Part shown: in pieces, positions 2,487-42,136 of the stretch | Layout of the letters: each line of letters begins with the position of its first letter | Numbering within the stretch: position 1 is the stretch's first letter | DNA from: Paenibacillus sp. 37 | Lineage (GTDB): Bacteria; Bacillota; Bacilli; Paenibacillales; Paenibacillaceae | Length of the DNA: 64,000 nucleotides | Reading direction: 5' to 3' | NCBI RefSeq assembly: GCF_008386395.1 | Contig: NZ_CP043761.1 | Span: 2,604,001 to 2,668,000, forward strand | Notes under the pieces: model-generated | What the model saw: the letters and a program-made list of their open reading frames with translations, nothing else | Database searches by the model: none | What the model was told of the DNA's origin: nothing | Made by a program: the position numbers and the translations under genes

Positions 2487-2523
2487 TCATGTCTTGTAAA
2501 AAATGTGTCTTGGTTGACTCCTT

Positions 2524-3185: not shown

Positions 3186-3506
3186 ATGATTCTAACCGTG
3201 TATTCCGGCCGCGAGGAAGGAGAATGGTTCGACATCGATGTTCCGGACGAATGTACCATTGAACATTTGAAGACATTACTCGGCGTTCGCATTTTTGGAC
3301 AGGCACCGGGAGACGGCATTCAGTACATCCTTGAAGCCAAGTTTCCGGAAGGTTTGTGGTTCTCTCCGCAGAACGCACAGCAATTAATGGAAACAGGGCT
3401 GCGACAAGGCAGTTGCGTACGTGTCCAGCGGGCTTTTTCAACGACTTCGGAAGAAGCGCCTGTATATGGAAGACGTTCATTGTTTCAACAGGACAGCAAC
3501 GAATAG
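3186..3506 (+). CDS. type VII secretion ubiquitin-like protein (EsaB/YukD family)
   Basis: The 106-residue product starts MILTVYSG and has the alternating strand/helix pattern of the small ubiquitin-like proteins EsaB/YukD that accompany EssC in Firmicutes type VII secretion systems. Identification rests on this pattern, on size and on position directly ahead of the EssC-type ATPase. ATG 3186 is chosen because GGGAGGG lies six bases upstream; the in-frame ATG at 3171 overlaps that site. It is the first gene of the secretion cluster, with a 54-base gap to the next gene. In staphylococci EsaB acts in the cytoplasm as a regulator or accessory factor; the same role here is inferred. Confidence 0.7.
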   Translation: MILTVYSGREEGEWFDIDVPDECTIEHLKTLLGVRIFGQAPGDGIQYILEAKFPEGLWFSPQNAQQLMETGLRQGSCVRVQRAFSTTSEEAPVYGRRSLFQQDSNE

Positions 3507-3560
3507 GGCTTTTGAACGTATACATTCATTATTGAACGAACTAAAGGAGGTCTTCTCTTC

Positions 3561-7565: not shown

Positions 7566-7581
7566 GGGGAGGTGGCTCATA

Positions 7582-8412: not shown

Positions 8413-8418
8413 TGGTAA

Positions 8419-8967
8419 ATGCGCATTCGTGTGGAACCGGATGTGCTTCGGGCACTGAGCAAGCAGATTCAGTATGCAGCGGAGCAAATACAGCAAAAGA
8501 TGACAGTGTTGGATCAGGCGATTCATTCGCTGGAGTGGGAGGTTGAATCCCGCGCAGCGGTGATGAATGAATGGAATCACAGTAAACGACTGGGCGAGGA
8601 TGCGCTGCGTCGATTAATGGACTTAAGCGTACAGCTGGGACGCAAAGCGTTGTTATTCCAGCAGGCAGACATGGAGTATCGTTCCGTGCTGAGTCATGTG
8701 AACACAGCCTATGGTAATGCGGTCAATATGCTGAATGTTCTTCAGAACAATCGTACAGGAGAAATCATGCCTGCACATTCTGCAACTGTAGCTGTAGTAT
8801 CCGATCCCCTTTCCGCAATGGCGGCCGTATATCGTGTACAGGATGCCGCTCCGCCTGATGGCTCCCCGGCTACACTGGTGCAGGCTATGCAGCCTGAGCC
8901 TGTAGCATGGAGATTCACAGATCCTTCCTTTCGGGGAAGAAGAGGGACCGAGCCTGTGGTTTCCTGA
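8419..8967 (+). CDS. WXG100-like secreted or partner protein with C-terminal extension
   Basis: The 182-residue product has an N-terminal region of about 100 residues predicted as a long two-helix hairpin, beginning with VLRALSKQIQYAAEQIQ. The turn carries LEWEVES in place of the exact WxG triplet, which makes it a diverged WXG100 protein. The C-terminal 80 residues are rich in Ala, Pro and Val and are probably flexible. It sits between the unknown operon member and the canonical WXG100 gene and may be the partner that pairs with it. The start follows GAGGAAAGGTGATGGTAA. The secretion role is inferred from fold and context. Confidence 0.65.
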   Translation: MRIRVEPDVLRALSKQIQYAAEQIQQKMTVLDQAIHSLEWEVESRAAVMNEWNHSKRLGEDALRRLMDLSVQLGRKALLFQQADMEYRSVLSHVNTAYGNAVNMLNVLQNNRTGEIMPAHSATVAVVSDPLSAMAAVYRVQDAAPPDGSPATLVQAMQPEPVAWRFTDPSFRGRRGTEPVVS

Positions 8968-11663: not shown

Positions 11664-11695
11664 ATAACGTGAACGATGGAGGTGACCCACCCTAG

Positions 11696-12448
11696 ATGAA
11701 CTACACGATTCAAGCATCACAGCGTACACCTGCACTTATTATATATTTAATTGATATTAGCGCCTCCATGAACATGGTTCTGGAAAATCGTCGACGGATT
11801 GACGTCGTCTATGATGCCCTATCTCTCGCGATCCGCCAAATGGTATTTCGCTCTACCAAGGGAAATCGTCTGACACCTCGCTATCGTATAGCCATATTGG
11901 CTTACAGCGATGATGTATATGACTTGTTGAACGGAATCAAAGGGATTGACGAGATCGCTGCAGTTGGTTCTTTGCCTGACCTGACTCCGAGACGCTTTTC
12001 CGATTCTGCGAAGGCTTTTCTACAGGCGGAAAAGATTCTACAGGCCGAAATTCCGAATATGCAGGATTGTCCTGCGCCACTTGTATGCCACATGACCGAT
12101 GGGGTAGCCACAGGTGAAGATCCCGAACCTATTGCAAAAAGAATTATGGGTATGAGTGTACCAGACGGCAATGTACTGGTGGAAAATATTTTTATATCCG
12201 ATCATCTGCTGGAAGGTCCAATTGCTGAACCCAGAAGATGGAAGGGAATCTCTTCGGAAACGAATCTACAGGATGAGCATGGAGAGAAGCTGCGGAATAT
12301 GTCATCCGTCCTGCCCGAAAGTTATCGGGAAATGCTTGTTGAAGCTGATTATTTGCTTGCACCCGGTGCACTCATGATGCTGCCAGGTACCTGTGCAGAA
12401 TTGGTATCAATCGGGTTCCAGATGTCCGCTGCTACGCCTGTTAGATAG
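11696..12448 (+). CDS. von Willebrand factor type A (VWA) domain protein, TerY-like
   Basis: The 250-residue protein is a single VWA domain with the metal-binding MIDAS motif DISAS (Asp20, Ser22, Ser24) and a later MTDG segment that would supply another metal ligand. There is no signal peptide, so it is probably cytoplasmic and mediates metal-dependent protein contacts. It lies between the kinase-like protein and the PP2C phosphatase. The same trio (VWA, kinase, PP2C) is known from TerY-type stress modules, and that parallel is the basis for the TerY-like label. The start follows GGAGGTGACCCACCCTAG, so the spacing is a little long. Confidence 0.8.
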   Translation: MNYTIQASQRTPALIIYLIDISASMNMVLENRRRIDVVYDALSLAIRQMVFRSTKGNRLTPRYRIAILAYSDDVYDLLNGIKGIDEIAAVGSLPDLTPRRFSDSAKAFLQAEKILQAEIPNMQDCPAPLVCHMTDGVATGEDPEPIAKRIMGMSVPDGNVLVENIFISDHLLEGPIAEPRRWKGISSETNLQDEHGEKLRNMSSVLPESYREMLVEADYLLAPGALMMLPGTCAELVSIGFQMSAATPVR

Positions 12449-12458
12449 GAGGGGAATC

Positions 12459-13301
12459 ATGAGAGCGATGCGTTTGGCAACATTGTCTGCTGGAGATAAG
12501 GGGGGCCATGCCGAGCAACGGCATGGCAACTTTCGCTATGTTAGTGTACAGACGGGAGAACAGCCACTAACCCGCTATCAGGGTACATTTAAGTGCAGAT
12601 ATGGTTATGGCAGAGCGGCTGAGACGGTACATCAGGGAGATACCGGACAGGACTTTGCTGCGGTACGTATGAAAGGAAATATCTGCAATTTTGTATTGTG
12701 TGATGGGGTAGGCATGAGTTACCTGGGCGATTTTGCAGCGCGTTTTCTGGGGAATGCTTTGCTGGATTGGTTGGAAACGACGCAACACCCGACAGAAGAG
12801 GGCGTGGAGCGTCTTCTCCATGATCTAACCCTTCCTGCATCTCAGCAGTTGGAGAAATTACAGCCACTGGAAAGTTCCCCTTTGTTGCTGCGTGAAGTGT
12901 TGATGGAAAAGCGAAGTCGGGGCAGTCAGGCCATGTATGTGTGTGGACGGATCGAGCTTACGGGAGGTGGCCGCAAAAGCCGTGTATGGTTAGCGTGGCA
13001 AGGAGATTCCCGTATTCGCCTTTGGCGTAATGGTCAGGAACAGTCTGAATTATTTCAGACTCACTGCAAGACAAATGAGCGTTGGTCTACACTTGAAGGG
13101 CCTGTTGGTGGTAAGCCGCACATCTGCGAGATGAAAGGGTCGGCAGGAGATTCACTGCGACTCCAGTTATATACGGATGGACTGAACGACCTGGATGCCA
13201 TTCAAGCCTATGTCCCGGATGAACACATTCAGGTACTGCTGGATGCTACACATACCGGCGGACTTGAAGATGATGCCGCTTTCATTGAGCTGGAATGGTG
13301 A
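12459..13301 (+). CDS. PP2C-family serine/threonine protein phosphatase
   Basis: The 280-residue product carries the aspartate motifs of metal-dependent PP2C phosphatases: GDTGQDFAAV, VLCDGVG, GDSRIRL, YTDGLND and a final DDAAFIELEW. PP2C enzymes remove phosphate from serine or threonine and counteract Hanks-type kinases; here the likely target is the kinase-like membrane protein encoded two genes upstream, or its substrates. ATG 12459 is preceded by AGGAGGGG; the open frame extends further upstream, but without such a site and into the end of the VWA gene. It is the last clear gene of the type VII cluster. Confidence 0.85.
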   Translation: MRAMRLATLSAGDKGGHAEQRHGNFRYVSVQTGEQPLTRYQGTFKCRYGYGRAAETVHQGDTGQDFAAVRMKGNICNFVLCDGVGMSYLGDFAARFLGNALLDWLETTQHPTEEGVERLLHDLTLPASQQLEKLQPLESSPLLLREVLMEKRSRGSQAMYVCGRIELTGGGRKSRVWLAWQGDSRIRLWRNGQEQSELFQTHCKTNERWSTLEGPVGGKPHICEMKGSAGDSLRLQLYTDGLNDLDAIQAYVPDEHIQVLLDATHTGGLEDDAAFIELEW

Positions 13302-13486
13302 GTGCGGGATATCAAGTTGTGGATCGATCCTGCTGAAGCTGTGACAGCGGCGAAGATCAACTGTGAAAAAACTTGTTGATGTTGATTTAAAAGACACTCT
13401 TTTTGGGTAATCTTGTGAAGAATTGGCTAATGAAAGCTTGAATGTACATTCTTACATAATTGCTAATCAAAGGAGTGGAATGGATA

Positions 13487-30105: not shown

Positions 30106-31203
30106 ATGGCTAAAGACGGAATGTTTTATGCACCAAAAAGTGTTACAAAAGAGGTCGTATGTGGTCCCGGTGAATTCACCATTGCTGCTGTTGCGCTGGA
30201 TCACGGGCATATTTACGGCATGGTTGGAGGATTGTTGGACGCTGGAGCTACCCTCAAGTGGGTATATGATCCGGACCCGGCGAAGGTAGAGGCATTTCAG
30301 AAGCAGTTCCCACAGGCTCAAGTCGCTGGATCTGAGGCAGAAGTGCTTGCAGATGATGAGGTGTTATTGGTGGCGAGTGCAGCAATCACTTCAGATCGTG
30401 CGCCGCTTGGCATGAGAGTGCTAGCCGCAGGCAAGGACTATTTTACAGACAAAGCCCCATTTACGACGCTGGAGCAATTAAAGCTTGCACGAGAAGAAGT
30501 GAAGCGAACAGGCAAAAAGTACATGGTGTATTACAGTGAACGATTACATGTAGAAAGCGCGATCTATGCGGGGCAGCTCATTGAACAAGGAGCAATCGGC
30601 AAAGTAGTGCAAGTTATGGGTACAGGCCCGCATCGCCTGAATGCCGGAGGAAGACCCGACTGGTTCTTCAAGCATGAGCAGTATGGCGGTATTCTCTGCG
30701 ATATCGGAAGTCACCAGATCGAACAATTTCTGACGTTTGCATCATGTACGGACGCTGAGGTAGGGTTCAGTCGTGTGCATAACTTCAATCACCCACAGTT
30801 CCCGGAACTGGAAGACTTCGGTGAAGCTTCACTGATTGGTGACAACGGAGCGTCGGGTTACTTCCGAGTGGACTGGTTCACACCGGATGGTCTGGGCACA
30901 TGGGGGGATGGGCGTACGGTTATTCTCGGAACAGACGGTTATATCGAGTTGCGGAAGTATATCGATGTAGCGAGAGAGCCGGAAGGTGATCAAGTCTATC
31001 TGGTAAACCATGAGGGCGAGTTTAGATACAGTGTAAAAGGCAAGGTCGGTTATCCTTTCTTCGGCCAACTCATTCGCGATTGTCTGGATCGTACCGAGAC
31101 CGCCATGACACAGGAACATGCATTCAAAGCGGCAGAACTCTGCCTGATTGCACAACATAAAGCGATGAGTGATCGCGTGGTGTGGAGTAGTGGAGCGAAG
31201 TAA
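30106..31203 (+). CDS. Gfo/Idh/MocA family oxidoreductase
   Basis: This 365-residue member of the same family lacks a perfect GxGxxG. The N-terminal fold is AAVALDHGHIYGMVGG, and the usual EKP is DKAP (FTDKAPFTT), as in several diverged sugar oxidoreductases. The later segment CDIGSHQIEQ carries the conserved Asp and His of the active site. It starts behind AAGGATGGGATGAC, 62 bases after the preceding gene, and closes the operon at a structured terminator. Confidence 0.88.
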   Translation: MAKDGMFYAPKSVTKEVVCGPGEFTIAAVALDHGHIYGMVGGLLDAGATLKWVYDPDPAKVEAFQKQFPQAQVAGSEAEVLADDEVLLVASAAITSDRAPLGMRVLAAGKDYFTDKAPFTTLEQLKLAREEVKRTGKKYMVYYSERLHVESAIYAGQLIEQGAIGKVVQVMGTGPHRLNAGGRPDWFFKHEQYGGILCDIGSHQIEQFLTFASCTDAEVGFSRVHNFNHPQFPELEDFGEASLIGDNGASGYFRVDWFTPDGLGTWGDGRTVILGTDGYIELRKYIDVAREPEGDQVYLVNHEGEFRYSVKGKVGYPFFGQLIRDCLDRTETAMTQEHAFKAAELCLIAQHKAMSDRVVWSSGAK

Positions 31204-31268
31204 ATGTTTTAGGTGAAGGGGAGCACAGGTTGATTACTAAAGGTTATCCGTTAAGTTGAGTGAAGAAA

Positions 31269-31349
31269 GAGCAGCCCAAATGTTAAACTGGATCCCAAAG
31301 GTTAGTCTTTTCTAACAAATGGAGCAGTTCGCACTGGGGCTGCTTTTTT
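31269..31349 (+). terminator. nested-hairpin terminator or structured RNA
   Basis: GAGCAGCCC and GGGGCTGC form the outer stem, AACTGGATCC and GGAGCAGTT a middle stem, and GTTAG-TCTTTT-CTAAC the tip, followed by six T. The layered structure is larger than needed for simple termination. Confidence 0.65.
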
Positions 31350-31498
31350 AAGTATGTTCGTGACTTCGCAGATGGATTAATCTGGGTTATATTATATGTA
31401 GTTCGGATATTGTTTGAAAAGAGAGGTATTTACGAAGTTCGTAGATGTGATGTTATGAGAAAGTGATGTAGACATTGTATAGAGGGAGATTATTCTAG

Positions 31499-32002
31499 AT
31501 GATTCGAAATACAGTAAGAGCATTGATTATTCAGAAAGACAATCTTTTATTAATAAAGAAAAGGAGAGCAAATATAGGTATTTATTATGTACTACCTGGA
31601 GGAGCTCAAGAAGAGAACGAAACATTGGAACAGGCGTTAAGTCGCGAGTGTATGGAAGAACTGGGTATTGAAATATCGAGTAGTAGGTTAGTTTGTGTAA
31701 GAGAATACATATCGCGCAATCATGAATACTCTTTCATAATGAAGGAAGTTCATTCTATTGATTTTATTTATGAGTGCAACAATCAATTCCTAAATAATGA
31801 ATTAAGAAGCCTACAAGCTGATGTTGGACAGGTTGGGATTGAATGGTTACCCATTAATGAAATTAAGAGGACAGTGTATAGGCTAGAAGAATCTTTAGAA
31901 CATTATAAATTTCCTAGAACAACCAATGAATTCTTTAAAGAATATTTTTCGGATCAAGTAATAAAACCATATTCTAGCGTAATATTTGAAAGTAATCCAT
32001 AG
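31499..32002 (+). CDS. Nudix hydrolase, cassette 1
   Basis: The 167-residue protein contains a complete Nudix box: the glycine of LPGG, then EENETLEQALSRECMEELGI with the REUXEE core that binds metal. Nudix enzymes hydrolyse nucleoside diphosphates linked to another group, such as oxidised nucleotides or NADH. The gene is much richer in A+T than the operon upstream. ATG 31499 follows AGAGGGAG with a slightly long gap. It is the first gene of the cassette array and is followed by the attC-like site at 32017. Confidence 0.88.
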   Translation: MIRNTVRALIIQKDNLLLIKKRRANIGIYYVLPGGAQEENETLEQALSRECMEELGIEISSSRLVCVREYISRNHEYSFIMKEVHSIDFIYECNNQFLNNELRSLQADVGQVGIEWLPINEIKRTVYRLEESLEHYKFPRTTNEFFKEYFSDQVIKPYSSVIFESNP

Positions 32003-32016
32003 AAGACATCACCATC

Positions 32017-32173
32017 TCATAACACCATATTCACGCATCGGGCATTCGCCCTCGGTCGCCAAGAGAGATTTCGGGGAAGCTGAATCAGGCGTCAACCCTG
32101 CACTGGCTAAGTCCGTCGGACCCGCGCTTACGCGCTTAAGCCAGTGAGGGTTCGTGAATACACAACGTTATAC
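32017..32173 (+). repeat. attC-like site 1
   Basis: TCATAAC (32017) and GTTATAC (32167-32173) are the outer boxes; ATATTCACG (32027) and CGTGAATA (32153) are the inner complementary boxes. The 157-base site has a long structured centre with GCGCTTACGCGC and ACTGGCT/AGCCAGT pairs. Confidence 0.8.
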
Positions 32174-32288
32174 GAAAATTATTATCCAAAAAATACAATT
32201 AAAACAAAAGGAGAATTTCATTTGAATAGAGTACTTCCTTCCAAATACTGGGCTTTTAGTTTCGGGAAAATTCCCAACATTACCTTCT

Positions 32289-32807
32289 TTGCAATCTTTT
32301 TACATGGGGTATGAAGATGATGAAACAATTAATGTAGAAGATGGATATGATACCAAAACAGAAAGACTATTTTGGATTCGTCATAAGGATTTAGATAAAA
32401 TGTTATCTATTGTAGGGGAAAGCAATTTTTTTTCATTTCATCGCGTATTTTTGAGCTATTATGAAGCGCATTTCAAATTAAATTATTTTTGGATTCATCG
32501 AATTTTCAATGAAAGTGAACAGACAAGAGAACCTTTGAAAATAGCTGAAATAGAAACCATGTTAGAAACTCAAGATATACAGATTGTTGATTCTGGAGCT
32601 TTGAAGTATGCCAACCACATTTTAAACGCAGGAACAAAGATACATGTAAAAGAAAACCATTTCAAAGAATACTTATGGGCAACCCAAATGAATGAACTTC
32701 TCCAAGCTTATAACTTATCGAGCTTTGAGAGCGTAACAATCCAAAGTAATGATATATTAAAGAGCTCTTACTTGTTCAAAGGAGCATTAGTAAAAAAAAG
32801 AAATTAG
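32289..32807 (+). CDS. hypothetical cassette protein, cassette 2 (start uncertain)
   Basis: The 172-residue product is acidic to neutral with mixed alpha/beta character and no motif I recognise. The listed start is TTG 32289, but the frame is open and protein-like back to 32226. The best ribosome binding site (AAAGGAG at 32207) serves TTG 32222, which is in a different frame and runs only 30 codons. Either a rare start (ATA 32226) is used or a one-base shift separates the start from the rest. The gene ends at TAG 32805-32807, five bases before the next frame. Confidence 0.6.
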   Translation: MQSFYMGYEDDETINVEDGYDTKTERLFWIRHKDLDKMLSIVGESNFFSFHRVFLSYYEAHFKLNYFWIHRIFNESEQTREPLKIAEIETMLETQDIQIVDSGALKYANHILNAGTKIHVKENHFKEYLWATQMNELLQAYNLSSFESVTIQSNDILKSSYLFKGALVKKRN

Positions 32808-32811
32808 CGTA

Positions 32812-33261
32812 GTGTTATATGAGTGGGCTAATATATATAGTTACACACAAACTGATTTTATTAAAAGAGTAAGTAACATTTTGGAAGTAATAAAAAATGA
32901 TATTGAACGCAATAAAGAATCATATGATGAAAAAAGCACAAGGCCATGGGTAAATAATTTAGTTTATTTCTTAAGTAAGCAAGTTAATGACAATAATTAT
33001 TATAAAGGATGTTTTTTTGGTGTGTTTAATGCTTCAGACCTGTTTGGTCCCTACTCCCGTCATGGGAGTGCTGAGATTAAAAGCATTAAAGGAGTGAACA
33101 ATCAACAGAGTATGGATTGTAAAACTATTATAAATGAGTGGAGAAACAACGGAATATTGCCTAGCGATGAACAGTTCATGAAGCTGTTTAAGTTATGGTA
33201 CTTTACTACCTCCTACTTAGTAATTAACTGGTTAAGACTACCTCACTTTTCTGCTAAATAA
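32812..33261 (+). CDS. hypothetical cassette protein, cassette 2
   Basis: The 149-residue product starts at GTG 32812, right behind the previous stop, and has no strong ribosome binding site of its own, so it is probably translated by coupling. It is predicted to be largely helical, with a distinctive segment GVFNASDLFGPYSRHGSAEI. No known family is recognised. The two genes together form a two-gene cassette ending at attC-like site 2; toxin-antitoxin or defence roles are possible but not shown. Confidence 0.6.
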   Translation: MLYEWANIYSYTQTDFIKRVSNILEVIKNDIERNKESYDEKSTRPWVNNLVYFLSKQVNDNNYYKGCFFGVFNASDLFGPYSRHGSAEIKSIKGVNNQQSMDCKTIINEWRNNGILPSDEQFMKLFKLWYFTTSYLVINWLRLPHFSAK

Positions 33262-33356
33262 TGCGTGTAAGCATGACTTAGTTTATGCAGTTTTGTCACG
33301 CTGGAAATTATTAAGATTTTATAATCTAGTAGAGGGCTTTAAGAAGAGATACCATC

Positions 33357-33452
33357 GTATAACATAATATTCACGCTGCGGACATTCGTCCTTGGTTCGG
33401 CGTTCGCCGGACACCCGACATGCGTCGGGTCGTGAATACAAGAACGTTAGGC
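33357..33452 (+). repeat. attC-like site 2
   Basis: GTATAAC (33357) and GTTAGGC (33446-33452, exact GTTRRRY consensus) enclose ATATTCACG (33367) and CGTGAATA (33431). The centre has two further hairpins, CCGGCGTT/GCCGG-like and CCCGAC/GTCGGG. Length is 96 bases. Confidence 0.85.
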
Positions 33453-33517
33453 GAAATTCTTAAAATCAAATATGTTTAAATCATCAAAACACAAACTTGG
33501 AGGTGCAAGTAAGAAAA

Positions 33518-34330
33518 ATGCCTAATTACTTAGAATATCAAAAGTCAATTGCCAAGGAATTTAAAGCGCACGAGTTACGTGTTCGGCACCTTATCGACGA
33601 TGCTAATTGGGCAGAAGAAGGACGATATAAAGAAATCATATTAATGAATTATTTAAAAAGGATTCTTCCCAAAAACCTCTCCGTAGGAACTGGATTCGTA
33701 AGGAACAAAAATCGCATAACCAAGCAGATAGATCTCATAATTTATGAGAATAATATACCACCTATTTTTTCAGAGGGAGATTTTATTGTTACAACTCCAG
33801 AAAATGTGATAGGTATCATCGAGGTTAAGAGTTCAATAGAACCTTCCAAATTATTAGAAATAGTTGATAAAGCTAACGAGAACGGTCTTATTATTTCTAA
33901 TGGACGTGACATTTCAATATTTAATGGGGTTTTTGCATATAGCGAAGTTAAAAGAAAAGACCAAGCTTATCAAAGTTACATGAAAAAGTTTTTTGATAAT
34001 AAAATTGTACAACGTGATCACTTTAATGAAATTTTACCGAAAAATTTAAAAGTTTGTGTTAATAATATTTGCTTAGGAGATAGAAGGTTTATTAAATTGT
34101 GGCCGTTTAAAGAAGAATATGATGAGTTCTTTGCAGAATATAGTTTTTATAAATTACCAAGTGGATTAGGTATATCTTATTTTTTATCTAATTTACAAGA
34201 GTTTATTTTACGTAGACAACTCGGGAATTATAGTGATCCTTTAGAATCGCATTATAAAGATGTTTATTATCCTCTCCCAGAAGGCAAAGAAGTTCATAAG
34301 ATGTATTTTGAAAAGTTTAAAGTATTATAA
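33518..34330 (+). CDS. DUF6602-like protein with PD-(D/E)XK nuclease-like core, cassette 3
   Basis: The 270-residue protein has a core that reads like a restriction-endonuclease fold: KQIDLIIYENN supplies the Asp and, after about 25 residues, VIGIIEVKSS supplies the ExK triplet. This arrangement and the flanking GFVRNKN match proteins of the DUF6602 kind. A role in DNA cleavage or phage defence is an inference. ATG 33518 is chosen downstream of GGAGGTG; TTG 33497 overlaps that site. The gene is the only one in its cassette and is A+T-rich. Confidence 0.75.
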   Translation: MPNYLEYQKSIAKEFKAHELRVRHLIDDANWAEEGRYKEIILMNYLKRILPKNLSVGTGFVRNKNRITKQIDLIIYENNIPPIFSEGDFIVTTPENVIGIIEVKSSIEPSKLLEIVDKANENGLIISNGRDISIFNGVFAYSEVKRKDQAYQSYMKKFFDNKIVQRDHFNEILPKNLKVCVNNICLGDRRFIKLWPFKEEYDEFFAEYSFYKLPSGLGISYFLSNLQEFILRRQLGNYSDPLESHYKDVYYPLPEGKEVHKMYFEKFKVL

Positions 34331-34347
34331 AAATAACTACGAAAATC

Positions 34348-34443
34348 GCCTAACAATATATTCACGCTGTGGGCATACGCCCTTGATCCGGCATTCGCCG
34401 GACACTCGACATGTGTCGAGTCGTGAATACGGGAACGTTATAC
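34348..34443 (+). repeat. attC-like site 3
   Basis: GCCTAAC (34348-34354, exact RYYYAAC consensus) and GTTATAC (34437-34443) enclose ATATTCACG (34358) and CGTGAATA (34422). The centre closely resembles site 2, with TCCGGCATTCGCCGGA and CTCGACATGTGTCGAG hairpins. Length is 96 bases. Confidence 0.87.
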
Positions 34444-34565
34444 GCAACCCCTTAAGAATGTTAAACCATGCAACCATTTAATAACAAATAATAAATATAG
34501 GTGAAAGAATACATTTACAGCGTAGCAGTTGAAACCAGGATGAACGGAATATTAGAAGGTGTACC

Positions 34566-34599
34566 ATATAACAATAAATTTCTACATCGTTAGTTATGC
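34566..34599 (+). repeat. possible collapsed attC remnant
   Basis: ATATAAC at 34566 and GTTATGC at 34593 lie only 20 bases apart in the gene-free part before the membrane protein gene. They could be the outer boxes of a site that has lost its centre. Confidence 0.25.
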
Positions 34600-34689
34600 T
34601 CCTTGGTCATTATGAGGAATACCAGAGAAGCGGATTTATAATAAAGTGCAAACTAAAGAATATTTCTTTTATGCGAAAGAGAGGATCAA

Positions 34690-35130
34690 ATGAATTATCA
34701 TTTTGGTTTTTCATGGAAGGGTCTGCTAATCTTTTTATTGCCAATGATACCAAATATATTTTATTTTTTAATTCCTGCGTCAGATATATCAGGAAACAAT
34801 GCAAATAGCCATTTGATTTTAGATGTTTTGGAGCACGGAAGTCAGGCGATATTTTTCTTTCTTCTGATATTTGTTGTAAGAGAACAAGCATCTGAAATGC
34901 GATGTCCGTATATAATTGGTATGCCAATAATGTTGATTTTTTATTATGGGCTATGGATATTGTATTTTACAGGCAACGCAAACTCGATTATTTTTTTGGG
35001 GATGGCCGTTCTCCCGGTAGTATATTTTATATTAGCTGAGATTTGGCTTCAAAATTATCTGGCTATTATACCAACAGTACTTTTTGGTATTGTGCATGTC
35101 ATTAATACATATTTGTCTATTGCGAATTAA
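34690..35130 (+). CDS. small integral membrane protein, cassette 4
   Basis: The 146-residue product has four predicted membrane helices (about 9-29, 47-67, 75-93 and 97-115, with a further hydrophobic C-terminal stretch). No enzymatic motif is visible and I do not recognise the family. The start follows GAGAGGA. About 245 bases before it and 230 bases after it contain no gene, so the cassette is unusually loose, perhaps because of decay of an older cassette. Confidence 0.7.
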   Translation: MNYHFGFSWKGLLIFLLPMIPNIFYFLIPASDISGNNANSHLILDVLEHGSQAIFFFLLIFVVREQASEMRCPYIIGMPIMLIFYYGLWILYFTGNANSIIFLGMAVLPVVYFILAEIWLQNYLAIIPTVLFGIVHVINTYLSIAN

Positions 35131-35362
35131 AGGGAGGACAACAATTCTCTTAAATTTTGATTGTGCGTTCAACATGTATTCTATTTCAAGGATTAAGTCC
35201 CGAATGGTGAAGGTGTACGAGAGTAAATGAGGGGATCTTTCCTATGCGGAAACGGATTTAATAGAAGCAAATGATAGAACCAAAAGATAAAACACATAAA
35301 GACATATTAAATACATAAAACACACCAGACATATAAGGATGTGGAATCGAAGAAGGGGCAGC

Positions 35363-35522
35363 GTATAACAATGCATTTTTGCTTCGTCGCTGACGCTCCT
35401 CGGTCTTCAAGAGGGATTTCGGAGAAGTGGAATCAGGCGACGCATCAACCAGCTAAGTGGCAAAGCTACCCGAACCTCCGGTCCTTAAGCCGTTTGGACG
35501 TCAGAAATGCGCAACGCTATAC
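35363..35522 (+). repeat. attC-like site 4
   Basis: GTATAAC (35363) and GCTATAC (35516-35522) are outer boxes, extended by GC on the left and GC on the right. The inner pair is GCATTTTTG (35373) and CAGAAATGC (35502). The 160-base centre resembles site 1. The outer right box deviates at its second base. Confidence 0.75.
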
Positions 35523-35603
35523 GCAATACACTAGAGTCAAGAAGAAAAACTAAAGAACAATAAAAAGAAGAAACATAATAAAACTTAAATGAAGGTGATA
35601 ATT

Positions 35604-35891
35604 ATGAAAGAATGGGACTATAGTAAGCCTTGGTTCCATGGCTCGCCATTTAAAGAAAAATTCAATTCAGATACGAAGGAGCACCAGATGATAAGTTATA
35701 AACCATTTCAAAAATTATTGATTGACAGGGAGATTAAGAAGCAGGATTTATTGAAAATGACGGGGATTTCATCGGCAACGATGGCAAAGCTCAATACGAA
35801 TGAGTATGTATCGTTAGAAGTAATTGATAAATTATGTACGGCATTGGGATGCCAGCCTGGAGATCTATTGGAGCATATAGTAGATCAATGA
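35604..35891 (+). CDS. XRE-type helix-turn-helix regulator, cassette 5
   Basis: The 95-residue protein has a C-terminal Cro/CI-type helix-turn-helix: FQKLLIDREIKKQDLLKMTG, then ISSATMAKLN and a final CTALGCQPGDLLEHI, the usual ending of short XRE regulators. The N-terminal 30 residues are polar and probably disordered. It likely binds DNA as a dimer; its target is unknown. ATG 35604 is taken because GAAGGTGA lies upstream; ATG 35589 overlaps that site. Confidence 0.85.
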   Translation: MKEWDYSKPWFHGSPFKEKFNSDTKEHQMISYKPFQKLLIDREIKKQDLLKMTGISSATMAKLNTNEYVSLEVIDKLCTALGCQPGDLLEHIVDQ

Positions 35892-35924
35892 TGGTTGATG
35901 ATTACTCAAAGATGAGATTCCGTC

Positions 35925-36046
35925 GTATAACATAGTATTCAAGCAGCGGCTCCGTCGGAGCCTTGATCTGCCAGAAGGATTTCAAAGAAGCATTTTAGCA
36001 GACACATCCGACTTTGTCGGACGTCATGAATACAACAACGTTATCT
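35925..36046 (+). repeat. attC-like site 5
   Basis: GTATAAC (35925) and GTTATCT (36040-36046) enclose GTATTCA (35935) and TGAATAC (36027). The centre contains GGCTCCGTCGGAGCC and a TCCGAC/GTCGGA pair. It shares the CAGCGGCTCC core with sites 7 and 9. Length is 122 bases. Confidence 0.82.
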
Positions 36047-36078
36047 GACATAAAACTGTTACATTTTAGGAGCAAATA

Positions 36079-36798
36079 ATGAATATCACTTTCTCGAAAT
36101 GGGTGCAATATTATCGAAGAAATAATCAAAACCTCAAATATATTCATTGGGATGACAACTATAAATTAACAACTAATGAAAGAGAAATAATCATTAAGTC
36201 AATTCAACAGTTTCAATTAGGAGAAAACTCTGAAGGTAAACATCTAATTAAACGTGCGCAAGAATATGTACATCAGACACAAGATCAGGATTACTATGAA
36301 GCGCTTATAGAATTCATTAAAGAAGAACAGAGGCACGCTAGAGATCTAGGCAGATTTATGAAGGTACAGGGAATCCCACTCCTTCGTAGACATTGGGTGA
36401 ACAATGTATTTAGAAGATTACGTCGATATGCGAGTTTAGAACAATCAGTCATTGTTCTATTAACCGCTGAGATCATTGCTAAGTTGTACTATAAAGCTTT
36501 GCAAAAATCTACAAAGTCAGAAGTATTAATCGATTTATGTAATCAGATTTTAAGTGATGAGGAGAAACATGTTCAGTTTCAATCCGAAACACTTCATAAA
36601 TTTGCTCAAAATAGAAACGTCTTCTTTAACAGAATAGTTTATACCCTTCGTAGAATTCTTTTTGAAGGAACGCTAATTATAGTGTGGTATCAACATAAGT
36701 CTGTATTTAAAGCTGGGGGATATAAACTCAAAAGTTATTACTATGAATGCCGTCATGAGTTTAACTTAACAAAGAAGATTATAACTAATTCACAGTAG
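36079..36798 (+). CDS. ferritin-like superfamily protein, cassette 6
   Basis: The 239-residue protein is nearly all helical and carries two ExxH-type metal motifs typical of ferritin-like di-iron proteins: EFIKEEQRHARD (about residues 79-90) and ILSDEEKHVQFQ (about 154-165), with an additional Glu in TAEIIAKLYY. It may oxidise a substrate or handle iron or oxygen; the exact activity is unknown. The C-terminal 60 residues are basic and may touch membrane or nucleic acid. The start follows TTTAGGAG. It is the single gene of its cassette. Confidence 0.8.
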   Translation: MNITFSKWVQYYRRNNQNLKYIHWDDNYKLTTNEREIIIKSIQQFQLGENSEGKHLIKRAQEYVHQTQDQDYYEALIEFIKEEQRHARDLGRFMKVQGIPLLRRHWVNNVFRRLRRYASLEQSVIVLLTAEIIAKLYYKALQKSTKSEVLIDLCNQILSDEEKHVQFQSETLHKFAQNRNVFFNRIVYTLRRILFEGTLIIVWYQHKSVFKAGGYKLKSYYYECRHEFNLTKKIITNSQ

Positions 36799-36809
36799 AG
36801 GCTTACGTC

Positions 36810-36976
36810 AGTTAACATTATATCCAAGCTTTGGGTCCTGACGCTCCCTCGGTTAGCCCGAAGGGAATTGGCAGGGAAGTGTAATCAGGCGGACACATCC
36901 GCACGGACTAACCGCATCGCGGCCGCCCCTAACGTGGTTTAAGTCGGTGGGCGTCGTGGATACAGTAACGTTATAG
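36810..36976 (+). repeat. attC-like site 6
   Basis: AGTTAAC (36810) and GTTATAG (36970-36976) are outer boxes and TATCCA (36821) and TGGATA (36957) the inner pair. The 167-base centre has several GC-rich hairpins and resembles sites 1 and 4. Confidence 0.7.
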
Positions 36977-37035
36977 GAAATTAGCGTATAAAAATACAAA
37001 ATAAAATTATTCAAACTCTGAATAGGAGTGAAATC

Positions 37036-37680
37036 ATGCTGGAAGCGGTTATTTTCGATATGGATGGTACACTATTTCAAACAAACAAAATCTTAGAGTT
37101 ATCGTTAGAAGAAACGTTTTCTATCTTGAGGTCTCGTAATGAATGGTCGAGTGAAACTCCAATTCAAAAATATCGTGAAATTATGGGAGTTCCTCTACCA
37201 GTAGTTTGGGAAACGTTATTACCGAACCATTCAAACGAAATCAGACGAGTTGTAGACGAAATCTTCTTGGAGAAGTTAATTGCAAATATTAATTATGGCA
37301 ACGGTGCGCTTTATCCGCATGTCAAAGAAATTTTTGATTTTTTAAAACAGGAAGGCTGCTTAATTTTTATTGCAAGTAATGGACTAATCGAATACCTCAA
37401 TGCTATCGTTAACTGTTACAAGTTAAATAATTGGGTCACAGAAACCTTTAGCATCCAGCAAATAGAGACTCAGAATAAGGATGACTTAGTTAGATACATC
37501 CTTATGAAATATCACATCAGCAACGCTGCTGTAGTTGGCGACAGGATTTCTGATATCAAAGCAGCAAAAAACAATGGATTGAAGGCTTTCGGTTGTCGAT
37601 TTGACTTTGCCCAAGAATGGGAGCTTAAACAAGCGGATTATATTATTGATGATTTACTTGAATTGAAAAAATATATTTAA
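37036..37680 (+). CDS. HAD-superfamily phosphatase, cassette 7
   Basis: The 214-residue protein has all HAD motifs: FDMDGT at the N-terminus (nucleophile Asp8, acid Asp10), IASNG as motif II, a Lys in the region before VGDRISDIKAA (motif IV). The size and helical cap fit the phosphoglycolate phosphatase/beta-phosphoglucomutase group. It likely dephosphorylates a small metabolite. The start follows AATAGGAG. Single gene in its cassette. Confidence 0.9.
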   Translation: MLEAVIFDMDGTLFQTNKILELSLEETFSILRSRNEWSSETPIQKYREIMGVPLPVVWETLLPNHSNEIRRVVDEIFLEKLIANINYGNGALYPHVKEIFDFLKQEGCLIFIASNGLIEYLNAIVNCYKLNNWVTETFSIQQIETQNKDDLVRYILMKYHISNAAVVGDRISDIKAAKNNGLKAFGCRFDFAQEWELKQADYIIDDLLELKKYI

Positions 37681-37734
37681 CATCATGGGAAGTGGAATAA
37701 TTTGTGAAGTATTTTCGAATAAGACGCTGACATC

Positions 37735-37837
37735 ATATAACATCATATCAAGCAGCGGCTCCTCACGGAGCCAGGATTTCGGAGAGGAATTTCAACAGAC
37801 AACCCCTTGGGGGTTCATGAATACGGGAACGTTATGT
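37735..37837 (+). repeat. attC-like site 7
   Basis: ATATAAC (37735) and GTTATGT (37831-37837) enclose ATATCA (37745) and TGAATAC (37818). The centre has GGCTCCTCACGGAGCC and ACCCCTTGGGGGT hairpins. Length is 103 bases. Confidence 0.82.
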
Positions 37838-37882
37838 CCATAAGAGCTTTAAAACATAATGACACTTTTTGGAGGTTAATTG

Positions 37883-38287
37883 ATGGGAGCATGGGGAACT
37901 GGAATTTTCGAGAACGATGATGTATTAGATTGGAAGGCAGATTTACTTGATTCTGATGACATCGAATTAATTGAAGAGACGATTGAAGAAGTACTAGAAG
38001 AAGATTATATTGAGTCAGATTTAGCTTCCAATGCTTTAGGCGCAATTGAGATCCTTGTAGCATTACAAGGTAATCCTGGGAAAGAAATTTTGAAAAATCA
38101 AAGTAATACAGAGGATCTATATGACTGGATCAATAGACATAAAGGAAAAGGAAAAAAACTCATTTCAAAAGCTAAACGAGCAGTTAAGAAAATTAAGAAA
38201 GATTCAGAACTAAAAGAGCTATGGGAAGAATCAGAAGAATACCCAATCTGGTTAAATACAATAAATGACTTAGAAAATCGATTGTAA
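37883..38287 (+). CDS. DUF4259 domain protein, cassette 8
   Basis: The 134-residue protein begins MGAWGTGIFENDDVLDW, the hallmark of the DUF4259 family, whose function is not known. An acidic helical segment (about 25-50) and a lysine-rich part (about 80-105) follow. ATG 37883 lies behind GGAGG; the neighbouring TTG 37880 is less likely. Single gene in its cassette. Confidence 0.88.
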   Translation: MGAWGTGIFENDDVLDWKADLLDSDDIELIEETIEEVLEEDYIESDLASNALGAIEILVALQGNPGKEILKNQSNTEDLYDWINRHKGKGKKLISKAKRAVKKIKKDSELKELWEESEEYPIWLNTINDLENRL

Positions 38288-38321
38288 AGAAATGGATAGC
38301 TTTTCGAGAAGAGGGAACTTC

Positions 38322-38437
38322 ACATAACAAATATTGAAGTTGCGGTTCCGTAGGAGCCTTGGTCTGCTGGAAGGATTCCGATGAGGCAATTTCGGCAGAC
38401 AACCCCTTTGGGGTTCATGAATACAGGAACATTAGCA
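38322..38437 (+). repeat. attC-like site 8
   Basis: ACATAAC (38322) and ATTAGCA (38431-38437) are outer boxes; ATATTGA (38331) and TGAATAC (38418) are the inner pair with one mismatch. The centre (GGTTCCGTAGGAGCC, ACCCCTTTGGGGT) is close to site 7. The outer right box has A for the first G. Confidence 0.75.
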
Positions 38438-38505
38438 GAAACCAAGGGATGCCTTAATCAAATTATAAAGACTAGATAAACTATTATTTAAGGACGGGGA
38501 TTTCA

Positions 38506-39132
38506 ATGAGTAGCTTGTTACTAACCTCTTGTGGTTTTTATACTGAAGATATTAAAAATCAATTTTTGGATTTTATTGATGGAGATATTTCTCAATTAAA
38601 AGTCTCAATTATTACAACAGCATCCCCTAGAAAAGAAACTAATAGATATGCACAAAGAGCAATGCAAGAGTTTAAGGACATGGGATTTCAACATATCAAT
38701 TTTGTAGATATTGAATTTGATGACCCGCAAATTCTCTTACATAGAAATGTTATATATATCAATGGTGGAAATCCATTTACATTATTGTATTACGCGAAGA
38801 AAAGTGGTGCTGATGAAGTTATTAAAACACTGGCTGCACAGAATGTAATTATAGTTGGTGTTAGTGCTGGAACTTTATTACTGGGCCCGAATATTAACAT
38901 TGTGGATTTCTTTACTCCACAGATGAACACAATGAATTTAACGGATTTTAAAGCATTAGGTGTAACCGACAAGCTTATTTTTCCTCACTATGATCGAGAG
39001 GACATATTTAAAGATAGTACTAATAAAACAATTGAAGAGAGAATAATAGAATTTGAATCCAATGAGAACTGTAAGGTGACAAGGCTTAAAGATGAAGAAT
39101 ATATTTCAATCTTAATAAACCAAGCACATTGA
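38506..39132 (+). CDS. peptidase E (S51 family), cassette 9
   Basis: The 208-residue protein is a member of the S51 serine peptidases. The nucleophile elbow is VGVSAGTLLLGPNI (Ser120), GGNPFTLL forms the oxyanion region, and FPHYDRED carries the catalytic His (about 161). Such enzymes cleave dipeptides with N-terminal Asp or act as cyanophycinase-like peptidases. The start follows AAGGACGGGG. It shares its cassette with the nucleotidyltransferase gene 57 bases downstream. Confidence 0.88.
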   Translation: MSSLLLTSCGFYTEDIKNQFLDFIDGDISQLKVSIITTASPRKETNRYAQRAMQEFKDMGFQHINFVDIEFDDPQILLHRNVIYINGGNPFTLLYYAKKSGADEVIKTLAAQNVIIVGVSAGTLLLGPNINIVDFFTPQMNTMNLTDFKALGVTDKLIFPHYDREDIFKDSTNKTIEERIIEFESNENCKVTRLKDEEYISILINQAH

Positions 39133-39189
39133 AAGTCGTAAATTCATTGAAAGTAGCTCGAAGAAGTTCTTATTTTAGGAGGAGTCTAT

Positions 39190-39957
39190 ATGATATTAGA
39201 AAAAGTTATAAATAGAATTGCAATACAAAGTGAATATAAGGATTTGGTTGATAAGTATGTGGATCGTATACTTTACGATTTCAAAGATAAGATTCATAGC
39301 ATTTATATGTGTGGATCGATTCCCAAAGGAACGGCTCAACCTTTTAAGTCAGATGCAGACTTTACTATTGTATGTGCAAATCCCGAAGATATTGATTACG
39401 AAAGATTGTCAATGATTAAAGACAGGCTTTTGGAAGAATATCCATTCGTCACTAAGATGGATACGATCATTTGCTCGATTGATGATGTATTAAGTAGACC
39501 GAACGATTGGGGTTTTTGGATTAAGATCATTTGTGTTTGTATACATGGGGAGGATATTGGTGAAAAAGTACCCCCGATCATAATTTCTCCAGAATTCATT
39601 TTAGACTTAAATACAGATACCAAGGAGGAAGTAGATCGTGTACATCGTTCACTTTCTAATGTTAGTGATCACGCAATGAAAACTAGATATATTAAAGGTT
39701 ACTCTAAGAGATTAATTCGTGCATTATACTCTTTGGTTTTAGAAGATACAGGGGTATGGGAAGACGAAATCATTAAGATGAAGAATGCCATATTAAACTA
39801 TTGCGATATTGACTCCGCTTTAGTTGAGTATCTTTATGCTTGTTACTTGGATAGCGATGTATCTGTTGAAGAGTTTCTGGAAATCGCAGATGAAGTATAT
39901 AGCTATTTTGAGAATGCCTTAAATATAATGGCTGCTTCAAAAACTTCCTCTGGCTAA
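39190..39957 (+). CDS. nucleotidyltransferase-fold protein, cassette 9
   Basis: The 255-residue protein has the pol-beta type nucleotidyltransferase signature GSIPKGTAQPFKSDADF (GS followed by DxD) and a helical C-terminal half. This layout is shared with small-molecule adenylyltransferases, including aminoglycoside-modifying enzymes, but no specific resistance family is recognised. The start follows TTAGGAGGAG. No attC-like site separates it from the peptidase gene, so the two form a double cassette or a fusion of two cassettes. Confidence 0.82.
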   Translation: MILEKVINRIAIQSEYKDLVDKYVDRILYDFKDKIHSIYMCGSIPKGTAQPFKSDADFTIVCANPEDIDYERLSMIKDRLLEEYPFVTKMDTIICSIDDVLSRPNDWGFWIKIICVCIHGEDIGEKVPPIIISPEFILDLNTDTKEEVDRVHRSLSNVSDHAMKTRYIKGYSKRLIRALYSLVLEDTGVWEDEIIKMKNAILNYCDIDSALVEYLYACYLDSDVSVEEFLEIADEVYSYFENALNIMAASKTSSG

Positions 39958-40000
39958 CAACATTTTTACGATATTGGTCACTCTGAGAGGCGATTTCGTC

Positions 40001-40107
40001 GTATAACATAACATTCAAGCAGCGGCTCCTCACGGAGCCATGGTATGCTAGACATATTTTTTGGAAACGCTTCATCGAACCCATTCAACTAATGTTGAAC
40101 GTTATAA
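40001..40107 (+). repeat. attC-like site 9
   Basis: GTATAAC (40001) and GTTATAA (40101-40107) are outer boxes. The left inner box ACATTCAAG is present with the CAGCGGCTCC core and hairpin seen in sites 5 and 7, but the right inner box is not clear, so the right half is degenerate. Confidence 0.65.
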
Positions 40108-40152
40108 TTAGAGGAAAATTAGGTAAATAATAGTTAGCGAGAGGAGGATTAA

Positions 40153-40785
40153 ATGCATATAAGAGGAGTAATTCTTGAGGGGTACTCAAATGCCGGGAAG
40201 ACTTCAGTATTAAAAGCGATTAAACGATATCAATCACAAGAAGAATCCTCAGAACGGAGTGTAGTTATTCTTGGAGAACATTATTCTCAAATTTTGAATA
40301 ATAAACATGGAGAATATGTGAGTCTAACGCGAGAAGAACACATTGAGTTACTTAAAGAGCGGGTGGAAATGCTAAAGAAACTTAATGATTGGGCAATTCA
40401 ACTTGGTCCTGCATCTAGAGGATCTAGGGGACTATTTTATGTGCTGGAGAGGTTTCACTTAAATCATAGAGCTGCATTTGCAGATTCGGATTTGGATGAG
40501 ATAAATAAAATAGAAGAACAGCTTGAGTCTTTAAACGCCAAGTGTATTTTGCTTACAATCTCGCCCGAAGTTGTAGAAGAAAGAATCAAAAGCAGACAAC
40601 CTGAAGAATGGATCTATAAAACAGAAGAAGAAGTAAGATCGTCGGTAAGTGAATTATTAAAAATCCAAAATGTATTAAGACATCAAGCTCAAATCTCAAG
40701 AGTGCCAACACTCGAAATCAATACAGACGGTAAGGATTGGGATGAGTATGTAAGGGTAATCATGGAGGGCAACGACATTGCCTAA
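40153..40785 (+). CDS. P-loop kinase-like NTPase, cassette 10
   Basis: The 210-residue protein starts with a strand and Walker A GYSNAGKTS (Lys16), then a helical region and a LID-like arginine segment EERIKSRQPEEW, as in deoxynucleoside and thymidylate kinases. It probably phosphorylates a small nucleoside-like or antibiotic-like molecule; the substrate is unknown. The start follows GAGAGGAGG. The TAA stop codon (40783-40785) lies inside the left box of the following attC-like site. Confidence 0.8.
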   Translation: MHIRGVILEGYSNAGKTSVLKAIKRYQSQEESSERSVVILGEHYSQILNNKHGEYVSLTREEHIELLKERVEMLKKLNDWAIQLGPASRGSRGLFYVLERFHLNHRAAFADSDLDEINKIEEQLESLNAKCILLTISPEVVEERIKSRQPEEWIYKTEEEVRSSVSELLKIQNVLRHQAQISRVPTLEINTDGKDWDEYVRVIMEGNDIA

Positions 40786-40837
40786 CCAAATGTTCAAGCA
40801 TCGTCGCTAGTGCTCTTCGGTCTGGTAGAAGTTATAA
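40780..40837 (+). repeat. degenerate attC-like site 10
   Basis: GCCTAAC (40780-40786, exact consensus) overlaps the stop codon of the kinase-like gene, followed by ATGTTCAAGC as left inner box. A GTTATAA at 40831 is the best right box, but no matching inner right box is seen. Confidence 0.5.
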
Positions 40838-40897
40838 GCAGAAGGATGTATCCAGCCAGACGTATCAGATCAAAACAACAAGCATAGGAGCAATATT

Positions 40898-41299
40898 ATG
40901 ACAATCATTTTCAAAGAAGTAAAAGACATTGATACACAAGCAATTCAAGAACTGTTTCACTCGGTGGAATGGAAATCAGGAGATTTCCCAGAAGATCTTA
41001 GACAAGCAATAAACAACTCACATACGGTTATTACAGCATGGGATGATACCAAATTAGTTGGCTTAATAAATGCATTGTCTGACGGCGTGATGACAGTATA
41101 TTTTCATTACATGTTAGTACACAAAGAATATCAATCATTAGGAATTGGAAAGAGAATGATGGAACAAATGCTTAGTCGATATTCTAATATCAAAACAAAA
41201 GTGCTTATATCCTATGATAGTGCAGAAAAGTTCTATGGATTATTTGGATTTAAGCCAGAAGAAGGCACAAAAGCTATGTTTATTTCAGATATGGTGTAG
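40898..41299 (+). CDS. GNAT family N-acetyltransferase, cassette 11
   Basis: The 133-residue protein has the acetyl-CoA motif QSLGIGKRMM and the C-terminal AEKFYGLFGFKPEEG typical of GNAT enzymes. It lacks any signal peptide. The substrate may be an amine, polyamine or antibiotic; nothing in the sequence decides this. The start follows ATAGGAGC. Single gene in its cassette. Confidence 0.9.
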   Translation: MTIIFKEVKDIDTQAIQELFHSVEWKSGDFPEDLRQAINNSHTVITAWDDTKLVGLINALSDGVMTVYFHYMLVHKEYQSLGIGKRMMEQMLSRYSNIKTKVLISYDSAEKFYGLFGFKPEEGTKAMFISDMV

Positions 41300-41334
41300 C
41301 ATTTTGGGAGTTTATCAAAGAAGTTGGGATCATC

Positions 41335-41396
41335 AGATAACAACACTTTTCAGTTCTAGGCATTTAGCATAGCCATTAGAAGAAGAGTGGTTATAT
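41335..41396 (+). repeat. short attC-like site 11
   Basis: AGATAAC (41335) and GTTATAT (41390-41396) enclose CACTTTTC (41344) and GAAGAGTG (41382), which pair with G-U. At 62 bases it is near the lower size limit of attC sites. Confidence 0.7.
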
Positions 41397-41419
41397 AAAC
41401 CAACATAGGAGGAATTAGA

Positions 41420-41821
41420 ATGAAATTTATCGTTTCTGCTAGTGTAATCGTTCTCAATGAACATAATGAGATTTTACTCATGAAAGGTCGAAGAGGCTGG
41501 GAAATGCCTCAAGGTTGTGTTGAAGAAGGAGAGACTATTAGGCAGGCAGCAGTACGAGAAGTGAAAGAGGAAACAGGAATTGACATCGAATTAATTAAAT
41601 TTTGTGGTTTGTATCAGAACATAACGCGCGGCGTATGCAACAATATATTTACTGGAAAACCGATTGGTGGAGCTTTAACTACCAGTGATGAAAGTGAAGA
41701 GGTGGGCTACTTTACTTTAGAAGAAGCTGGGCAAATGATAACATGGGGGAATTTCTATGACAGAATTCACAATGCATTAGATGAGAAAAGTCATCCTTTT
41801 TTGATTGAATTTTCAGAATAA
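41420..41821 (+). CDS. Nudix hydrolase, cassette 12
   Basis: The 133-residue protein holds a full Nudix box GCVEEGETIRQAAVREVKEE followed by TGI. It is not closely related by eye to the Nudix protein at the other end of the array. The gene starts behind ATAGGAGG. It is the last cassette gene; a decayed attC-like remnant follows. Confidence 0.9.
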   Translation: MKFIVSASVIVLNEHNEILLMKGRRGWEMPQGCVEEGETIRQAAVREVKEETGIDIELIKFCGLYQNITRGVCNNIFTGKPIGGALTTSDESEEVGYFTLEEAGQMITWGNFYDRIHNALDEKSHPFLIEFSE

Positions 41822-41842
41822 GGGCAATCATTAGATCACAAT

Positions 41843-41850
41843 ATATTCAC
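41843..41850 (+). repeat. decayed attC-like remnant at array end
   Basis: ATATTCAC is identical to the left inner box of sites 1 to 3 and lies right behind the last cassette gene, preceded by a mutated outer box (TAGATCAC). No right half is visible. Confidence 0.4.
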
Positions 41851-41955
41851 TTATCGGGTTTACTCCCTCTGTCCGAAGACGAGATCTCGATAAATTAGAG
41901 AAAATATACTCCACATGACACTCCACAAGCTCTACATTATGGTAGATTCCATCTT

Positions 41956-42027
41956 AAAAGGTGCTCCTCTCATGGGTTGGTGATGTTCTAAACAAACACC
42001 ATTCTACCATAGATAGGAGCTCTTTTT
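41956..42027 (+). terminator. long-hairpin terminator after the cassette array
   Basis: AAAAGGTGCTCCTCTCATGG pairs with CCATAGATAGGAGCTCTTTT, and GTTGGTG with CACC further in, followed by T residues. It marks the transcriptional end of the array region. Confidence 0.75.
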
Positions 42028-42136
42028 ATATGATTGTACCTTCGTAACTCAGGTTTAATTGCGCTAGTTTTCTAATTGTGAAAATGGGATCGGCTCAATA
42101 GGGGCACTGCTTCTGCTCACCAATGGAGATATAAGG

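Follow-up and report, generated by a model that had tools for sequence, protein, structure and literature searches.

An integron-type cassette array behind an orphan attI-like site in Paenibacillus, probably served in trans by a patchless tyrosine recombinase

In an integron, the bases that open a cassette after the G|TT junction and the final R'' box of the same cassette come from one circle, and they pair with each other because of this common origin. Within an array, one attC site is made up of halves contributed by two different cassettes. It is the I2 helix that is regarded as having made an integron integrase out of a Xer-like enzyme. Its role is described as wanting direct proof, since its removal kills IntI1 (PMC7790495, in the part consulted). 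According to the excerpts of PMC2727003 available to us, the L stem of an attC site carries two to three extrahelical bases, and sites without them still recombine with strand choice partly lost. Integrases have been selected by the patch (PMC2426708, in part). The accessible part of PMC9024848 reports a few CALINs from Firmicutes and a single complete integron (Limnochorda), so arrays in Firmicutes are not new as such.

Here we describe an array in the window, by which we mean the whole 64 kb stretch of the Paenibacillus sp. 37 chromosome that was analysed. An earlier note on this DNA had reported eleven palindromes, and inspection of the sequence confirms the run where it had been placed, with one gene or gene pair on the plus strand preceding each. 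Sites were sought with R1, a covariance model built in this analysis from 30 rows, drawn from sites of this genome and its relatives; three rows come from the window. At E <= 1 the scan gives 10 attC-like matches, all on the plus strand and all within 32014-40894, and seven of these lie outside the training set. Eight are strong (46.7-107.4 bits) and two are weak. A covariance search, which the earlier note had proposed, thus detects the sites, and the single orientation claimed for their R''-L''-L'-R' order holds for all ten, as does the plus strand for every array ORF of at least 130 aa. The number eleven is close without being exact: near 41337 and 41833 the eye picks out two more R''-like remnants, which R1 misses.

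The array opens with an orphan attI-like site (31383..31455), the predicted insertion point of new cassettes, where the cut would fall between G31452 and T31453; this and all the following features are on the plus strand. Cassette 1 (31453..32167) encodes a Nudix hydrolase (Pfam PF00293) and ends in attC 1 (32014..32178, R1 60.2 bits). Cassette 2 (32168..33446), with two ORFs that have no Pfam match, and cassette 3 (33447..34437), with DUF6602 by Pfam, each have an own pairing of 5/5, and their sites, attC 2 (33354..33457, 95.8 bits) and attC 3 (34345..34448, 87.7 bits), are both training rows. A 146 aa ORF without a Pfam match lies in cassette 4 (34438..35516), whose attC 4 (35360..35527) is degenerate, with GCT in place of GTT (21.7 bits, E 0.011). 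Cassette 5 (35517..36040) carries a Cro/C1-type HTH gene (PF13443) and the third training row from the window, attC 5 (35922..36051, 107.4 bits). The 239 aa product of cassette 6 (36041..36970; attC 6 at 36807..36981, 54.4 bits) has a weak ferritin-like match just under the cut-off (PF00210). There follow a HAD hydrolase (PF13419) in cassette 7 (36971..37831; attC 7 at 37732..37842, 71.3 bits) and DUF4259 (PF14078) in cassette 8 (37832..38431), in whose attC 8 (38319..38442, 98.3 bits) ATT replaces GTT. Cassette 9 (38432..40107) encodes a peptidase S51 and a nucleotidyltransferase (PF03575, PF01909) and ends in attC 9 (39998..40118, 46.7 bits). Cassette 10 (40108..40894) is P-loop kinase-like, with AAA and Thymidylate_kin matches under the cut-off, and has the weak attC 10 (40777-40894, 23.5 bits, E 0.0039). 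At the array end (40898..41850), GNAT and second Nudix genes (PF13673, PF00293) lie behind decayed sites recognized by eye only.

The array is A+T-rich, as had been noted (34-37% G+C against 43-51% in the 10 kb on its left), and the claim that its genes are mutually unrelated stands by Pfam family for all except the two Nudix genes. Three array ORFs gave no match in the Pfam search, and an Rfam search of the sites matched no family. A promoter-like stretch at 31365-31393 (plus strand) agrees with the consensus at 9/12 bases, a match to consensus only. The 64 kb window contains no integrase and, with at least two attC sites and no adjoining integrase gene, the locus has the composition of a CALIN.

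For the structure of the sites we used R1 matches from relatives as well, 203 sites in 22 sources (20 integrase loci, the window and the locus L009); a second scan yielded 199 sites in 21 sources. Statistics of the L stem come from the 150 best of the 203 sites, in an alignment fitted to R1. All of these (150/150) match on the expected strand, and a six-pair L stem is gap-free in 148/150; the commonest patterns are eight consecutive pairs (61 sites) and six pairs, one 1x1 mismatch and a further pair (54). As aligned, the sites have no extrahelical bases, where an integron L stem has two to three, and this matches the loss of the patch from the integrase described below. Among the sites of 104 bases, 30/32 fold into a closing stem with three hairpins, a cloverleaf, with 96.8% of cells paired, nine pairs changed on both sides against a shuffled mean of 6.2, and a covariation of 0.201 against 0.116 in shuffles. 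One of the five covariation measures, further pair types, was not above the shuffles. By folding energy the bottom strand is more stable in 62/106 sites, which gives no clear strand preference.

Short palindromic repeats are frequent in bacterial genomes, and on that ground the palindromes could be taken for ordinary repetitive extragenic or transposon-borne elements beside unrelated genes. Their pairing speaks for something else. At three variable positions, pairing is perfect within a cassette in 65/104 cases and within a site in 8/106, and the mean own-pairing is 2.33 against 1.15 (sd 0.07) in 10,000 shuffles, our control against chance (both in 22 sources). The same comparison gives 75/102 for cassettes against 16/119 for sites in more distant loci, and 33/61 against 7/79 in window-like loci of other species. 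Sequence motifs defined the boundaries, and each own pair was taken from one detected boundary to the next, so that a site missed in between lowers the count. This motif-based test was used instead of an exact 10-mer scan of the distant loci, which was dropped because it is symmetric between strands by construction. Own-cassette pairing, G|TT junctions and a common orientation are all unexpected of ordinary repeats; we reject transposon-type repeats because of the first two, and regard this explanation as hardly credible.

The junctions themselves were located by comparing first cassettes at 42 junctions with all loci. Counting alignments of at least 80% identity and at least 150 bp, 41 have their start in the range from -100 to +150 around the junction: 24 begin right at the G, 3 begin at +1, 4 run through attI in both sequences and 10 begin elsewhere. 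The 27 at the G or +1 stem from 16 junctions and are not independent, since several share a cassette. A single cassette occurs behind the integrase attI in L053, behind the orphan attI of both L078 and L082, and also after an attC in L053 and in L049. Cassette 1 of the window, the Nudix unit, recurs in 5 other loci at about 95% identity, the alignment starting -3 to +1 from the G, and the homologous unit of cassette 4 behind the orphan attI of L072 (96%) aligns from the G onwards. Judged by these alignments, the cassettes are units bounded at G|TT that recur between species and between integrase-linked and orphan platforms, and genome comparison finds the insertion and loss of cassettes at G|TT that characterize an integron. 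The earlier note had suggested just such a comparison of strains; its outcome, relatives that differ by units starting at G|TT, together with the R1 matches, supports the note's interpretation of the locus as an integron-type array in a Gram-positive chromosome.

The platform on which these cassettes stand is itself conserved. The attI-like site of the window is 72-78% identical to most of the integrase-linked attI regions matched in other genomes. A query of left flank plus attI (30106-31460) has matches in 63/75 genomes of the genus, those in G017, G060, G062 and G063 being to the attI part alone. We fetched 20 flank loci, of which 19 match up to the attI-like site (79-93% identity) and one, L087, has the flank with the attI-like site absent. 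In 18/20 loci the match stops at most 8 bases behind GTTA, and in L081 just before it; the sequence beyond varies, and GTTA is altered in 2/19 (L074, L081). A tblastn search of 16-19 kb behind the flank found no integrase at the 20 counterpart loci. Given this and the lack of an integrase in the window, the locus is, as read from these genomes, an orphan attI platform, about 0.9 Mb from the integrase locus.

This strain has integrase pieces at C1:1759150-1759703 and 1765900-1766056, some 0.87 Mb away from the array in the window. The two copies found are both broken, and an attI-like site and cassettes stand behind each. The distance between integrase locus and array is 0.86-0.97 Mb in the ten relatives for which it was computed. 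A 107-residue integrase piece has matches in 67/75 genus genomes at E <= 1e-15, Xer-like proteins included. Our census of the 75 genomes, made by reading the table of matches, calls an integrase intact if its frame stays open for 360 residues or more with no stop, its identity is 68% or higher and the match extends over the C-terminal piece. It counts 23 genomes with such a gene, 31 whose copies are altered or short, and 21 that have at most a small piece. The 20 integrase loci that we fetched represent 19 genomes, of which 16 belong to the intact set. Behind all 20 stand attC-like motifs, mainly on the integrase strand with few on the other, and an attI-like site, recognized from sequence only and weak in L045, L046, L058 and L059 (22-24/31 bases). 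The gene reads towards the array, so that the order in these genomes is integrase gene, predicted attI-like site and array, in one orientation.

The integrase is not the IntI-patch recombinase that the earlier note had expected. TIGR02249 scores it at 209.6 bits, in two stretches, against a cut-off of 265; the alignment of 2a3v is likewise in two pieces, skipping chain residues 173-239, and a 43-column insert of IntI1 is missing. Canonical IntI (TIGR02249) was found in 0/75 genus genomes at E <= 1e-40, none being over the cut-off. As this alone would be no proof of absence, IntI1 was run as a positive control (507 bits) and the search extended to the order, where 0/296 genomes have a match over the cut-off (search at E <= 1e-60).

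Could the patchless integrase be a bystander to real cassettes, moved by XerC/XerD-type recombinases of the host or by a canonical IntI passing through? Arrays do persist in 20/21 genomes without an integrase, and cassette capture is said to require the I2 helix (PMC7790495, in the part consulted). Against this reading stand the joint occurrence of integrase, attI-like site and array at every one of the 20 genus loci and the lack of a match over the IntI cut-off in the 75 and 296 genomes. The integrase also appears, on a rough estimate, to be under purifying selection, with a median dN/dS of 0.11 (14 intact genes, 91 pairs; median dS 0.95). In addition, attC matches, counted per genome as lower bounds, have a median of 21 where the integrase is intact (23 genomes) and 12 where at most a small piece is present (21 genomes; one-sided Mann-Whitney p 0.0005, the species not being independent). 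For the 31 genomes whose copies are altered the median is 25, which links the number of attC matches to having had the gene. Taken together, we consider a bystander role unlikely.

We therefore read the locus, with a probability of about 85%, as a Paenibacillus integron array that stands behind an orphan attI-like site and is likely supplied in trans with a patchless tyrosine recombinase, whose gene lies about 0.9 Mb off in relatives. Since both copies found in this strain are broken, its array is likely to stay frozen unless an integrase enters anew. The patchless protein is presumably an active recombinase, which would bring a duplex attI together with a single folded strand of attC and join them at G|TT, leaving a single crossover for replication to resolve. 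Because the VIA list for the whole integrase covers mainly residues 90-347, the N-terminal part was folded alone, and the model weakly resembles HARP/UvsW-like branched-DNA recognition domains. More speculatively, this domain might read the folded site, replacing the I2 helix that serves IntI for extrahelical bases. In a tree, one split (97/97) places IntI1 and a Chryseobacterium protein on the side of the patchless set, and four Xer-type proteins from this genome on the other; the branches are long and the placement unsure, so we claim no origin.

The system is not confined to this genome. R1 finds attC matches in 74/75 genus genomes at E <= 0.01, and the integrase is found in 107/296 genomes of the order at E <= 1e-30. 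In other genera of the order, 17/20 fetched loci have at least two R1 matches in the orientation of the integrase; of the other three, L126 and L138 lie at contig ends and L135 yields no R1 match. Across the phylum, 27/398 genomes match the integrase at E <= 1e-60, many over its full length, three of them Paenibacillus. The 11 phylum loci fetched include 8 with at least one exact own-pair match, mostly with attC-like flanks and not all convincing, and 4 with R1 matches at E <= 0.1; other classes show the same architecture with fewer sites. Proteins from Saccharibacillus, Cohnella, Gorillibacterium and a Clostridia MAG stand among the best 120 of 5439. Relatives with arrays occur in other Bacillota. 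It seems that one also occurs on a Bacteroidota plasmid, from Chryseobacterium, where a patchless relative (39% identity) precedes two copies of a 188-base repeat (97%) as well as an inverted pair of the own-pairing kind; an R1 scan of this plasmid locus gave no match.

This distribution bears on the view that the arrays are leftover CALINs of laterally imported Gram-negative integrons, a view that can draw on the few reported Firmicutes CALINs, for which recent acquisition is suggested (PMC9024848, in part). With attC matches in nearly all genomes of the genus, attI-like sites and an integrase of its own, and an architecture shared by other genera and, at lower site numbers, by other classes, we reject such import as the main source on the genus-wide attI and integrase, and think it very improbable. 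The wider generalization, a second kind of integron reaching across Bacillota into Bacteroidota, with an integrase whose N-terminal branched-DNA domain takes over from the I2 helix in reading folded attC sites, which has no need of extrahelical bases and which fills several attI platforms of a chromosome, orphan ones in trans included, is one we put forward tentatively, at somewhat less than even odds.

Integrons may be a regular part of Paenibacillus genomes, as the attC matches suggest, in a phylum where the accessible part of PMC9024848 calls them extremely rare; that rarity is likely apparent, because surveys ask for the patch. The earlier note had thought the array unexpected and perhaps an undescribed lineage. 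On the first point, arrays as such are not new, given the published Firmicutes CALINs; as to the second, our literature search (titles and starts of abstracts, with subscription papers and preprints outside it) found no Paenibacillus integron and no patchless integrase with arrays. Nor did the literature searched yield a report of an orphan attI, though this was not sought by name. A natural patchless integrase with varied arrays makes the question of the I2 helix directly testable, and it may represent an older state or another solution.

How, then, does the system compare with those already described? By the cassette tests it behaves as an integron, yet it lacks two of the features by which integrons are now defined, the patch and the extrahelical bases. 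With CALINs the window shares an attC cluster without an adjoining integrase, but it keeps an attI-like site conserved in relatives, and the integrase lineage exists on the chromosome. The Limnochorda pilosa integron is likewise an integron in Firmicutes (PMC9024848, in part); being complete by IntegronFinder it should have a canonical IntI, unlike the patchless integrase here. The integrase of L011 passes the cut-off of NF040815, the XerA-type 'site-specific tyrosine recombinase/integron integrase' (225.8 against 220 bits), whereas no cassette platform is described for the patchless members of that family or of the 'integron-like' subgroup in the part of PMC8138268 consulted. Sedentary chromosomal integrons, for example of the Vibrio type, share the most: attI, cassette arrays, R''-L''-L'-R' sites, joining at G|TT and a tyrosine recombinase. 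The Paenibacillus system differs from them in having neither the IntI patch (I2 helix) nor extrahelical L-stem bases, and in having an extra N-terminal integrase domain and a second, orphan attI platform. Its integrase also reads towards the array, which is not the usual orientation of an integron integrase.

Cassette 2 of the window array carries two adjacent open reading frames of 172 and 149 amino acids in different frames (window 32289-33261). This pair is perhaps a single gene broken by a frameshift; neither frame had a match in a Pfam search. The array's right-hand end has a segment of about 140 bases (window 41935-42076) with matches of 80-89% in four counterpart loci (L068, L074, L076 and L081), and this segment may be a right border common to these loci. 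The sole Rfam match in this area lies far under its cut-off.

In the integrase region of the same strain (L009), two mutually related genes of about 600 amino acids apiece (3037-4839 and 11521-13317) lie alongside the pair of broken integrase copies and in the interval that separates them. By eye, their predicted products appear to be serine-hydrolase-like. A patchless integrase, built as in Paenibacillus, is also found on a Chryseobacterium plasmid (L121). It is followed by two 188-base repeats (4071-4258 and 6166-6353, 97% identity) and by cassette-like genes for Crp/Fnr, RidA and metallophosphoesterase proteins. This is seemingly a Bacteroidota version of the patchless-integrase system.

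Outside the window, a locus from a genome of the same family (L133) hosts a run of about 10 copies of a cassette of about 630 bases (1817-8836), with near-identical junctions. Each copy has an internal second inverted pair, GTTAGGTCAAG and CTTGACCTAAC, and the run looks like the amplification of a single cassette. Two further loci, L132 and L134, host dense arrays, each with more than 20 attC matches per 20 kb by the covariance model, and these are comparable in size to superintegrons.
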